NCBI RefSeq assembly: GCF_018760365.1
Contig: NZ_JAHIAB010000010.1
Location: 62,001-126,000 of the forward strand
Length of the DNA: 64,000 nucleotides
DNA from: Pseudooceanicola endophyticus
GTDB lineage: Bacteria > Pseudomonadota > Alphaproteobacteria > Rhodobacterales > Rhodobacteraceae
Direction: 5' to 3'
In this document: positions 26,566 to 30,417 of the stretch, in pieces
How the letters are laid out: the number at the start of each line of letters is the position of its first letter
How positions within the stretch are numbered: position 1 is the stretch's first letter
The notes under the pieces: model-generated
The model's input: the letters and a program-made list of their open reading frames with translations, nothing else
Told to the model about the DNA's origin: nothing
Databases searched by the model: none
Program-made: the position numbers and the translations under genes

Positions 26566-27723
26566 ATGCCCCTTTCCCAAGGACAGAAACCGACCGCCTG
26601 CCTCGCGCTTGCCGATGGCACGATCTTCTATGGCAAGGGCTTCGGAGCCGTCGGCGTGACCGAGGCGGAGCTCTGCTTCAACACCGCGATGACCGGCTAC
26701 CAGGAGATCATGACCGATCCCTCCTACGCGGGCCAGATCGTCACCTTCACCTTCCCCCACATCGGCAACACCGGCGTGAACGCGGAAGATGACGAGACGC
26801 TGGACCCGGTGGCGGCCGGCATGGTGGTGAAGTGGGACCCGACCACCCCGTCGAACTGGCGCTCGGCCGGAGAGCTGGGCGACTGGCTGGCGGCCCGGGG
26901 CCGGATCGCCATCGGCGGCATCGACACCCGCCGCCTGACCCGTGCCATCCGCGCCCGCGGCGCGCCGCACGCGGCCCTGGCCCATGATCCCGAAGGCAAT
27001 TTCGACGTCGAGGCCCTGGTCGCGCGGGCACGCGGCTTCAAGGGCCTGGTCGGGCTGGACCTGGCCAAGGACGTCACCTGCGCCCAGTCCTACCGCTGGG
27101 ACGAGATGCGTTGGGCCTGGCCGGGCGGCTTCCCCAAGCAGGAGGCGCCGCGCCACAAGGTCGTCGCCGTAGATTACGGCGCCAAGCGCAACATCCTGCG
27201 CTGCCTGGCCTCGGCCGGCTGCGACGTGACCGTGCTGCCCGCCACCGCGACGCTTGAGGACGTGCTGGCCCACAATCCCGACGGCGTCTTCCTGTCGAAC
27301 GGCCCGGGCGACCCGGCGGCGACCGGCGAATATGCCGTGCCGATGATCCGCGGCGTGCTGGACAAGACCGACCTGCCGATCTTCGGCATCTGCCTCGGCC
27401 ACCAGATGCTGGCGCTGGCGCTTGGCGCCAAGACCGTGAAAATGAACCACGGTCACCACGGCGCCAACCACCCGGTGAAGGAACTGGAAACCGGCAAGGT
27501 CGAGATCACCTCGATGAACCATGGTTTCGCGGTGGACAGCCAGACCCTGCCCGAGGGCGTCGTGGAAAGCCACGTCAGCCTGTTCGACGGCTCGAACTGC
27601 GGCATCCGCATGACCGACCGCCCGGTGTTCTCGGTGCAGCACCACCCCGAGGCCTCTCCGGGCCCGCAGGACAGCTTCTACCTGTTCGAGCGCTTCGCCG
27701 CCTCGATGGAAAAGGTCGCCTGA
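26566..27723 (+). CDS. carA: Carbamoyl-phosphate synthase small subunit
   Basis: This 385-residue glutamine amidotransferase subunit supplies ammonia to CarB for carbamoyl phosphate, used for arginine and pyrimidines. The N-terminal domain has TACLALADGTIFYGKGFGAVG and FNTAMTGYQEIMTDPSYAGQ. The GATase class I domain has the catalytic Cys in FGICLGHQMLALALG (about 275) and His/Glu in QHHPEASPGPQD (about 359). carB is not adjacent. Confidence 0.97.
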   Translation: MPLSQGQKPTACLALADGTIFYGKGFGAVGVTEAELCFNTAMTGYQEIMTDPSYAGQIVTFTFPHIGNTGVNAEDDETLDPVAAGMVVKWDPTTPSNWRSAGELGDWLAARGRIAIGGIDTRRLTRAIRARGAPHAALAHDPEGNFDVEALVARARGFKGLVGLDLAKDVTCAQSYRWDEMRWAWPGGFPKQEAPRHKVVAVDYGAKRNILRCLASAGCDVTVLPATATLEDVLAHNPDGVFLSNGPGDPAATGEYAVPMIRGVLDKTDLPIFGICLGHQMLALALGAKTVKMNHGHHGANHPVKELETGKVEITSMNHGFAVDSQTLPEGVVESHVSLFDGSNCGIRMTDRPVFSVQHHPEASPGPQDSFYLFERFAASMEKVA

Positions 27724-27748
27724 CCCGGACACCTTCCGATGTGTCGCA

Positions 27749-27779
27749 ACGGCCCGCCCTTTGGCGGGCCGTTTGCATT
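27749..27779 (+). terminator. Terminator after carA
   Basis: The stem ACGGCCCGCC / GGCGGGCCGT with loop CTTT is followed by TTGCATTT, 25 bp after the stop. Confidence 0.85.
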
Positions 27780-27808
27780 TGGCAGGTGGTTAACGGCGAC
27801 CTTCCGCA

Positions 27809-27845
27809 TTAAGACTTCTTTAACAATAAGTTAAGCCTCGATTAA
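27809..27845 (+). promoter_or_regulatory. Four TTAA boxes in exact 11-bp phase (CtrA-like site array)
   Basis: TTAA occurs at 27809, 27820, 27831 and 27842, each pair separated by exactly 7 nt (GACTTCT, CAATAAG, GCCTCGA), giving three overlapping TTAA-N7-TTAA sites. That is the full CtrA consensus of alphaproteobacteria, and the last box continues as TTAACCA, like the extended half-site. The array ends 50 bp before the GTG of the glycosyltransferase gene. TTAA is scarce elsewhere in this GC-rich window. A further TTAA at 27790 is out of phase. Confidence 0.7.
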
Positions 27846-27895
27846 CCAAGCCCTGTCACTCCTGTCCCCGCCGGATCCAGAAGGGAGGGCACGGG

Positions 27896-29770
27896 GTGGC
27901 GGAACTGCATCGGCCGGGACGCTCGAAGGCGGCCGAATCCGGCCCCCTGGTCTATGCCCATGGCCTGCCGCGCAGCGGCGGCGCGCTGGAGGAGGCCGCC
28001 GCCCCCTTCCTCGGGCGGGCGCCCGTCTCGGCCGAGCTGGTCGAGGGGCTGCGCCGTGCCCATGCCGAAGGCCGCATCACCGAAGACCACCTGCTGGACC
28101 TTCTGGGCGGCTATTTCGGCATGCGCTGCATCGACCTTTCAGAGGATCCGCCCGATCCGGAACTGGCCGACCTGCTTGACCCGGGGTTCTGCCTGGGTCT
28201 GCAGATCGTGCCCTGGCAGCTGGATCAGGGGGTGCTGATCATCGCCACCGCCCGCCCCGAGGGCTTTGCCGAGATGGCCGCCCGGATCTCTTTCGCGCTG
28301 CGCGAGAAGCATCGCCTGGCGCTGCGTCCGGTACTGGCGCCGCGCGCCGCGATCCAGGCCCTGGTCGCCAGCCGCGCCCGGACCGAGCTGACGGCGGCGA
28401 TGTCGGCCCGCGTGCCGCTTTCAGAAAGCTGCCGCGGCTGGGGCCAGACCGGCACCCGGCTGCTCTGGCTCAGCGGGCTGGGCGCGCTGGCGGCGCTGCT
28501 GACGCTGCTTTTTCCCCATGCCGCCTTCCTGCTGCTGTTCGCCTGGGCGACGCTGACGCTGATCTTCGCCATCCTGCTGAAGACCGGCGCCGCGCTGGCC
28601 CAGCTGTTCCACCCGCCGCCGCCCCTCCTGCCCCGGGCCGAGGGCCCGCTGCCGCATATCTCGGTGCTGGTGCCGATGTTCCGGGAACGCGACATCGCCG
28701 GCACCCTGATCGCCAACCTGCAACGGCTGGACTATCCGCGTGACCGGCTGGACGTGCTGCTGTGCCTGGAAGAGGCCGACCAGGTGACCCAGGACACCGT
28801 CGCCGCGATCGCCCTGCCCAGCTGGATGCGGGTCGTCGTGGTGCCCCGCGGTGCCCCCCAGACCAAGCCCCGGGCGATGAACTACGCGCTGGATTTCTGC
28901 CACGGAGAGATCGTCGGCATCTTCGACGCCGAGGACCGGCCCGAGCCCGACCAGCTTTACCGGGTGGCGCGGCGCTTTGCCGATGCCCCGCCCGAAATGG
29001 TCTGCCTGCAGGGCGCGCTCGATTATTTCAACAGCCGCCAGAACTGGATCGCCCGCTGCTTCGCCATCGAATACAACAGCTGGTTCCGTCTGGTCCTGCC
29101 CGGCATGGAAAAGCTGGGCCTGCCGATCCCGCTCGGGGGCACCACGCTTTACATGCGCCGCAACGTGCTGGAGCGGATCGGTCGCTGGGACGCCCACAAC
29201 GTCACCGAGGATGCCGACCTGGGCATCCGCCTGGCCCGGCGCGGCTACCGGACCGAAATCCTGGATACCACCACCTGGGAAGAGGCCAACTGCCGCGCCT
29301 ACCCTTGGGTGAAACAGCGCTCGCGCTGGCTGAAGGGCTATATCGTGACCTATCTGGTGCACATGCGCCGGCCCGTCGCGCTGCTGCGCGATCTGGGCCC
29401 CTGGCGTTTCCTGGGCTTCCAGATGCATTTCACCGCCGCGATCTCCCAGTTCCTGCTGGCACCGCTGCTGTGGTCGTCCTGGCTGATCGTGCTGGGCCTG
29501 CCGCATCCGCTGTCACAGCATGTCGCCCATTCCTGGCTGGTCGCGCTGGCCCTGCTGTTCTTCGCGGCGGGGGCGGTGAACATCCTGCTGGGCCTGGTGG
29601 CGACGCGCGGAGCGCTGCACCGCCACCTCTGGCCCTGGGTTCCGACGATCTCGTTCTATTTCCCGCTGGGCTGCCTGGCCTGCTACAAGGCTGCCTGGGA
29701 AATGGTGGTGAACCCGTTCTACTGGGACAAGACCAGCCACGGCCATGCCCAGCCCAAGCGCAAATCCTAG
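27896..29770 (+). CDS. Membrane family-2 glycosyltransferase with GspE-N/MshEN-like N-terminus
   Basis: This 624-residue processive-type glycosyltransferase starts at a GTG behind GGGAGGG. Residues about 40-160 resemble the GspE/PilB N-terminal fold (LLDLLGGYFGMRCIDLSEDPP, LQIVPWQLDQGVLIIATARPEG). MshEN members of that fold bind cyclic di-GMP. Two TM helices (about 186-232) precede the GT2 domain. Catalytic motifs are DAED near 344, TEDADLG near 436 and QRSRW near 473, all as in cellulose-synthase-like enzymes, followed by about four more TM helices. It probably makes and exports a polysaccharide; the polymer is unknown. No co-subunit gene adjoins. A CtrA-like box array is upstream. Confidence 0.9.
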   Translation: MAELHRPGRSKAAESGPLVYAHGLPRSGGALEEAAAPFLGRAPVSAELVEGLRRAHAEGRITEDHLLDLLGGYFGMRCIDLSEDPPDPELADLLDPGFCLGLQIVPWQLDQGVLIIATARPEGFAEMAARISFALREKHRLALRPVLAPRAAIQALVASRARTELTAAMSARVPLSESCRGWGQTGTRLLWLSGLGALAALLTLLFPHAAFLLLFAWATLTLIFAILLKTGAALAQLFHPPPPLLPRAEGPLPHISVLVPMFRERDIAGTLIANLQRLDYPRDRLDVLLCLEEADQVTQDTVAAIALPSWMRVVVVPRGAPQTKPRAMNYALDFCHGEIVGIFDAEDRPEPDQLYRVARRFADAPPEMVCLQGALDYFNSRQNWIARCFAIEYNSWFRLVLPGMEKLGLPIPLGGTTLYMRRNVLERIGRWDAHNVTEDADLGIRLARRGYRTEILDTTTWEEANCRAYPWVKQRSRWLKGYIVTYLVHMRRPVALLRDLGPWRFLGFQMHFTAAISQFLLAPLLWSSWLIVLGLPHPLSQHVAHSWLVALALLFFAAGAVNILLGLVATRGALHRHLWPWVPTISFYFPLGCLACYKAAWEMVVNPFYWDKTSHGHAQPKRKS

Positions 29771-30417
29771 AGAGAACCCTCGACCCGCGCGGCATCCAGC
29801 TTGAGCCGGGTCATGAACGCCTTGGAGATATGGGTGCGCAGCGCCTCGGCGGCCTTGGCCTCGTCATGGGCGGCAATGGCACGCACGATGGCGTCATGTT
29901 CGGCCAGCGCATCGCCGCCACGCCCTTCCGCCGCCAGCGAGGTCGTCGCCAGCAGCGCCATGGAGCGGTGCACCAGGTCAAGCTGCTGCACCAGGAAGCG
30001 GTTGTGGGACGCCAGGTGGATCTGGTGGTGGAAGCGCCGGTTCGCCCGCGCCAGCGCCGAGGGGTCGTCCATCAGCTTGCGGTCGTCCTGCACCATGTCC
30101 TGAAGCACCCGCACCTCTTCGGCAGAGGCATGGCGCGCGGCCAGGCGCGCGGCCAGCGCCTCCAGCTCGGCGCGCACGACGTAAAGCTCCGAAAGCTGGT
30201 TGTGATCCAGCGATGCCACGATCAGCGAACGTCCGTCGCGGGTCAGCAGCGCCTGGGTTTCCAGCCGTTGCAGGGCTTCGCGGATCGGGGTGCGCGAGAC
30301 GCCGAAACGCTCGGCCAGCTCGCTTTCCACCAGCCGGTCGCCGGGGCGGTAGACACCGACGTCAATGGCTTCGAGGATCAGCGAATAGGCGTCGCCCTGG
30401 GCGGGTTTGCTGGCCAT
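29767..30417 (-). CDS. GntR family (FCD subfamily) transcriptional regulator
   Basis: This 216-residue regulator has an N-terminal winged helix (GVYRPGDRLVESELAERFGVSRTPIREALQRLE) and a C-terminal FCD helical ligand domain with the metal-site pattern of Asp and His residues (ANRRFHHQIHLASHN, LAEHDAIVRAIAAHD and RTHI). AGGAGG precedes the ATG. Its stop shares the tetramer CTAG with the stop of the convergent glycosyltransferase gene. FCD regulators often sense organic acids; the target is unknown. Confidence 0.92.
   Translation of the reverse strand: MASKPAQGDAYSLILEAIDVGVYRPGDRLVESELAERFGVSRTPIREALQRLETQALLTRDGRSLIVASLDHNQLSELYVVRAELEALAARLAARHASAEEVRVLQDMVQDDRKLMDDPSALARANRRFHHQIHLASHNRFLVQQLDLVHRSMALLATTSLAAEGRGGDALAEHDAIVRAIAAHDEAKAAEALRTHISKAFMTRLKLDAARVEGSL

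Follow-up and report, generated by a model that had tools for sequence, protein, structure and literature searches.

The window, that is, the whole stretch of 64,000 nucleotides of Pseudooceanicola endophyticus DNA that was analysed, has a GC content of 67% and carries, between carA and a gene for a glycosyltransferase, four TTAA boxes that start at positions 27809, 27820, 27831 and 27842. The boxes follow each other in an exact 11-bp register and give three overlapping TTAA-N7-TTAA units, as a preliminary description of this DNA had claimed. Boxes 2 and 1, next to the glycosyltransferase gene, form a core CtrA-type full site (TTAAGCCTCGATTAA, 27831..27845, + strand) at the –35 region of a predicted promoter, and are preceded by box 3 (27820..27823) and by the distal box 4 (27809..27812), both listed without a strand. 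Box 1 ends at 27845, and 50 bp, the distance given in that description, separate it from the GTG start codon of the gene at 27896. A fifth TTAA (27790..27793, no strand assigned), possibly an isolated half-site, lies outside the 11-bp register, 19 bp upstream of the array; a distance of 19 bp between two TTAA was seen four times in the family ortholog set described below.

The scarcity of TTAA in this DNA, and the small likelihood of such a cluster arising by chance, were also borne out: the window contains 13 TTAA against 22.2 expected from shuffles, and its three matches to TTAA-N7-TTAA all lie in the array, against a mean of 0.02 in 100 dinucleotide shuffles, none of which reached three. 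The triple TTAA-N7-TTAA-N7-TTAA is unique to this array in the 5.2 Mb assembly as a whole. The pair TTAA-N7-TTAA is found at 27 places, out of 104 matches to TTAA-N0..30-TTAA in which the other spacings average about 2.6 each, while the reversed-pattern control (AATT) gives 16 matches at N7 and 322 over N0..30; it is the N7 share that differs (27/104 vs 16/322), the raw counts of 27 and 16 being fairly close.

The gene thought to be controlled (27896..29770, + strand, GTG start) encodes a GT2 glycosyltransferase of the processive-synthase type, 624 amino acids long, with an N-terminal MshEN domain. The earlier assignment of a glycosyltransferase gene downstream of the array was confirmed by the TED and QxxRW motifs of a GT2 enzyme and by a match to the MshEN Pfam domain; an alignment of 15 relatives shows no variation in DAED and QxxRW and almost none in TED, and the solved relatives found with the profile are PilF, PilB and MshE on the N-terminal side and, for the catalytic portion, cellulose synthase. 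The product is probably a membrane synthase; as to the polymer made, which we infer, a polysaccharide is likely. The c-di-GMP signature of MshEN domains consists of two 24-residue motifs, RLG...LxxxLxxQ (PMC5013675). The motif is not recognisable in the synthase of the window, where the best match covers 8 of 22 positions and shuffles average 8.75, whereas 12 of the 51 family rows scored, all from genera other than that of the window, reach 16–19/22, with the best-kept copy at locus L038 (19/22). The MshEN motifs (residues 1–160, 27896–28400) thus look decayed in this genus and well kept in several other genera, so that loss of c-di-GMP binding by the synthase in the genus of the window is likely, if unproven. 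This apparent decay hints at a lineage-specific switch from allosteric to transcriptional control.

On the carA side, a strong hairpin with an 11-bp stem and a 4-nt loop, followed by TGCATTTG, lies after carA (27748..27773, + strand) and is a possible carA terminator. The segment 27735–27785 folds with –28.7 kcal/mol (z –4.0), and a strict terminator scan of 27650–30000 called none. This hairpin may end carA transcription, in which case the synthase gene would need a promoter of its own.

Conservation of the core site upstream of the synthase gene

Conservation was followed in a family set of 60 genomes (G000–G059), comprising 53 orthologs of the synthase gene with upstream DNA, one (G043) that starts at a contig edge and six genomes without a close ortholog, and in a named set of 80 loci, which overlaps the family set in species. 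The preliminary description had proposed the conservation of the spacing in relatives as a check on its reading, and the spacing is indeed kept: 45 of the 53 family orthologs have TTAA-N7-TTAA no further than 450 bp from the match start, and it is present at 67 of the 80 named loci, the remainder of the latter being five loci with TTAA-N18-TTAA only, seven with neither (one of them near a contig end) and one that was too short. Among the eight family orthologs in which the exact N7 pair is absent within 450 bp, five have TTAA-N18-TTAA, with the outer boxes in register and the middle box reading TTAG or TTCA in four and CACC in L054; the other three (L014, L018 and L022) show degenerate 11-bp repeats, recognised by eye only. 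When fixed 310-bp windows are used, the core site is found in 42 of 53 family orthologs, against 0.06 expected by shuffles, and in none of six paralog or out-of-family copies. Four family genomes contain a second, more divergent synthase-type copy (L057, L058, L059 and L060; 36–39% identity) without a full CtrA-type site upstream.

The distance from the core site to the gene is conserved as well, with a median of 49 bp to the synthase ATG (IQR 44–54, range 24–234; 63 loci). Across the family, the TTAA-to-TTAA distances of up to 45 bp are dominated by 11 bp (51 cases), 22 bp (17) and 33 bp (8), all others being seen four times or fewer. The consensus of the aligned orthologs is TTAAC-N5-(A/G)TTAACC, and the CtrA motif is quoted as TTAAC-N5-GTTAAC (PMC7232146).

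Predicted promoter layout and the CtrA system of the genome

In the CtrA promoters of Rhodobacter sphaeroides, transcription starts 23–24 nt after the site, an A is conserved at –11 and the starts are always purines (PMC6180460). This start distance, together with the A at –11, predicts an A at offsets 16 and 17 from the proximal box, and A is enriched at precisely these offsets, in 29/51 and 33/51 rows, against 1 to 20/51 at the other offsets between 5 and 65; in the named set the figures are 43/72 loci for each of the two. The downstream A was neither used as an anchor nor selected for in the alignment. It falls 13–14 nt downstream of the core site and would place the site near –35; in the R. 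sphaeroides work, activating sites lie near –35 and repressing half-sites overlap –10 (PMC6180460). The window has an A at the predicted position –11 (27858, + strand), in agreement with the enriched offsets, and on this basis the start of transcription is predicted near 27869 (27868..27870, + strand), 23–24 nt past the CtrA site by the R. sphaeroides geometry; the fit is imperfect, in that bases 27868 and 27869 are C and the only purine is the G at 27870. A purine-rich Shine-Dalgarno-like stretch, GAAGGGAGGG, can be read at 27880..27889 (+ strand). No consensus sigma-70 promoter was found in 27650–30000, a result that is little informative because shuffles also gave just 0.1, and 27701–27898 contains no CcrM/GANTC sites.

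The genome encodes the regulator itself, a CtrA with 77% identity to the query sequence and a score of 418 bits against profile NF045991 (cut-off 350). It also encodes a hybrid kinase, named CckA-type for the order of its PAS, HisKA, HATPase and receiver domains, and a TTAA-N7-TTAA site lies 52 bp from the ATG of this CckA-type gene. No full N7 site is present in the 350 bp upstream of ctrA (L177, G000:C12:290696), which contain two single TTAA, at –55 and –18. Other N7 sites precede dprA, radC and a luxR-type gene. Twelve frames adjoining N7 sites, of the 27 N7 places, were scanned: seven matched families, five matched nothing, and none of the 12 matched a flagellar family. Two TTAA-N7-TTAA sites 65 bp apart were observed beside a gene for a PmrA/QseB-like response regulator and a divergent frame (L080 1234–1313; G000:C12:521733–521812), a locus that is possibly a further CtrA target. 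Two frames just downstream of full CtrA-type sites (L086 534–1202 and L088 548–1249) gave no hit to Pfam or NCBIfam under the cut-offs applied. CtrA control of cckA has been proposed in Rhodobacterales (PMC2877005; PMC7232146).

The CtrA reading of the boxes, put forward in the preliminary description, is thus supported by sequence comparison, namely by the conservation, the consensus and the enriched A. The best explanation, to which we give a probability of about 0.85, is that the array is the promoter of the synthase gene and is activated by the response regulator CtrA, with the core site at –35 and boxes 3 and 4 extending it. CtrA~P would bind the proximal full site (27831–27845) at the –35 region and recruit RNA polymerase, and transcription would start near 27869; activation is preferred over repression because of the position of the site, by analogy. 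In this species, and repeatedly in a set comprising Pseudooceanicola, Roseovarius and Lentibacter, the site would have grown to three or four half-sites that keep an unbroken 11-bp register, about one helical turn. Boxes 3 and 4 could then receive a second CtrA dimer in phase, docking head-to-tail on the first in the manner of OmpR/PhoB-family regulators bound to direct repeats, and any such cooperativity might raise expression, steepen its response or protect it against low CtrA~P. The conserved core site before the synthase gene suggests that the timing of polymer synthesis is under CtrA control. Points that weigh against this explanation are the eight family orthologs without the exact N7 pair, the C at 27868 and 27869, the absence of a full site before ctrA and of flagellar families among the 12 frames scanned, and, as described below, the minority of orthologs with a long array, the triple arrays found away from the synthase gene and the behaviour of the Caulobacter pilA promoter. 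The CtrA targets published for Rhodobacterales include flagella, quorum sensing and gene transfer agents (PMC7232146; PMC4046655), and by this analogy lifestyle control may fit better than cell-cycle control, the two options raised in the preliminary description.

The extra in-register boxes and the alternative explanations

The two upstream boxes are less widely kept than the core. Among 105 distinct N7-anchored orthologous promoters, related species being counted apart, an exact TTAA stands at the third in-register position (box 3 of the window) in 18 and at the fourth (box 4) in 7; at off-register upstream offsets of the same promoters exact TTAA occurs 0.51 times on average and four times at most. 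In 123 orthologs, two boxes are found in 89 and at least three exact boxes in 28, so that a long array is dispensable for the synthase gene. Four exact boxes are present in five orthologs, those of the window, Roseovarius litorisediminis (L102), a Lentibacter (L103) and two Rhodobacterales records (L113 and L115). On a quick tree, 22 of the 28 orthologs with at least three boxes fall in one set of 48 rows, and this label requires 16 changes, against 25.5 for shuffled labels (none of 500 as low); the array state is thus clustered on the tree, with repeated gains or losses. Nine of the 60 family genomes contain an exact triple array, at the synthase gene in six and elsewhere in three. One triple array (G022:C22) belongs to a genome that has no synthase match and another adjoins a frame that, by eye, resembles a resolvase (G059:C7); the small genome G054 also has a triple array and is not among the six with an array at the synthase gene.

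Selection for the 11-bp register of the distal boxes is likely, which does not imply the sign of their effect. The core pair could be a real CtrA promoter in which the boxes at 27809 and 27820 are neutral or damp expression, as at pilA of Caulobacter, and we regard this as a possibility to be taken seriously, if the less probable account. Most orthologs have just the two boxes (89/123), and in Caulobacter upstream CtrA sites repress pilA, lowering and delaying its expression, while artificial close tandem sites did not raise activity: two full sites 6 bp apart, an arrangement close to the four-box array, had about the activity of one site, three tandem sites had the lowest activity, and a reduced amount of CtrA affected neither the two- nor the three-site construct (PMC11264516). 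Against neutral or damping boxes stand the recurrence in exact register far above the off-register background (18/105 and 7/105, background mean 0.51), the return of four exact boxes in R. litorisediminis, the Lentibacter and the two Rhodobacterales records, and the 16 changes of a label that is nonetheless clustered on the tree. The pilA gene too is preceded by a number of CtrA sites, including one at –35, but these natural sites are irregularly spaced (31, 3 and 78 bp apart), mix N6 with N7 and are off consensus, unlike the array, in which all boxes are exact TTAA in one register (PMC11264516).

Repression of the synthase gene by bound CtrA is improbable. Some promoters are repressed by CtrA (PMC6180460; PMC11264516), but the enriched A would put the core site near –35, the activating position, and not in the overlap with –10 that is associated with repression (PMC6180460). 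Slightly more improbable still is the binding of another OmpR/PhoB-family regulator, for example the envelope regulator CenR, to the 11-bp direct repeats. Regulators of this family do bind direct repeats about one turn apart (PMC9275681), the genome encodes several further regulators related to CtrA, and the synthase is probably a membrane protein; the repeated word, its flanks and its geometry, however, agree with published CtrA sites, and the CckA-type gene has the same motif upstream. A CenR operator in particular was ruled out by its motif, since CenR of R. sphaeroides uses TGA-N8-TGA (PMC9275681), which is absent from both strands of 27701–27898.

As carA is present in the flank of 77 of the 80 named loci, an element linked to carA had to be excluded. 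No TTAA-N7-TTAA was found within 600 bp after carA in any of five relatives with carA and without a close synthase ortholog (a sixth genome, G020, has no close carA and is not among the five), and the core site is present at L131 although its flank has no carA match. The distance from the carA stop to the core site (median 30 bp, IQR 13–58, range –4 to 146; 63 loci) is also looser than that to the synthase start, and on these three grounds a carA-linked element was ruled out. Chance and an AT-rich spacer were ruled out as the origin of the array by the shuffles of the window (0.02) and of the orthologs (0.06/53), so that assigning the array to carA, as part of its 3' region or terminator, or to a spacer kept by chance, retains a negligible probability.

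Relation to known systems and significance

PhoB operators are tandem direct repeats, arranged head-to-tail about one turn apart. The array resembles such PhoB/ArcA-type operators in its head-to-tail repeats and in being assigned to an OmpR-family regulator, and differs from them in the half-site; triple repeats are mentioned for ArcA (PMC9275681). Closer to the array are the CtrA promoters of R. sphaeroides fla2 (PMC6180460) and of Dinoroseobacter shibae (PMC4046655), which share TTAA-N7-TTAA and, as predicted here, its position near –35, the A at –11 and the spacing from site to start. The fla2 promoters studied, by contrast, have one site each, some with 6 bp between the half-sites, whereas the promoter described here has three to four half-sites in an unbroken 11-bp register and belongs to a polysaccharide synthase gene. 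The gene product resembles NfrB of E. coli, a c-di-GMP-controlled GT2-MshEN exopolysaccharide synthase in which a GT2 domain with TED and QxxRW is likewise joined to MshEN; the MshEN domain is C-terminal in NfrB and N-terminal in the synthase of the window, which, unlike NfrB, has no recognisable 24-residue c-di-GMP motif (PMC8669469).

CtrA promoters are already known in Rhodobacteraceae. The family-wide link to the synthase gene and the exact-register multi-box array appear to be new, in that neither the synthase gene as a CtrA target nor such an array was reported in the portions of the literature surveyed, and these portions of the CtrA literature likewise describe no natural continuous CtrA array of this kind. 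For D. shibae, 101 promoter regions with CtrA sites are tabulated in a supplement (PMC4046655), and this table may list the ortholog.

A more far-reaching proposal, which we consider speculative and rather unlikely, is that CtrA assembles head-to-tail on continuous 11-bp TTAA arrays, that the MshEN-GT2 synthase beside carA has the dedicated array promoter of the Rhodobacteraceae, and that the length of the array (two, three or four boxes) would act as an evolvable dial for the switching of a surface polysaccharide by CtrA~P; in Pseudooceanicola this dial would have replaced control by c-di-GMP, and the motif would have decayed.

The analysis names a widely kept candidate CtrA target in Rhodobacteraceae, a probable polysaccharide synthase with a domain of the c-di-GMP-receptor type. 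Natural arrays of two, three and four boxes occur at this same gene in related species, so that any cooperativity of CtrA on phased half-sites becomes directly testable.
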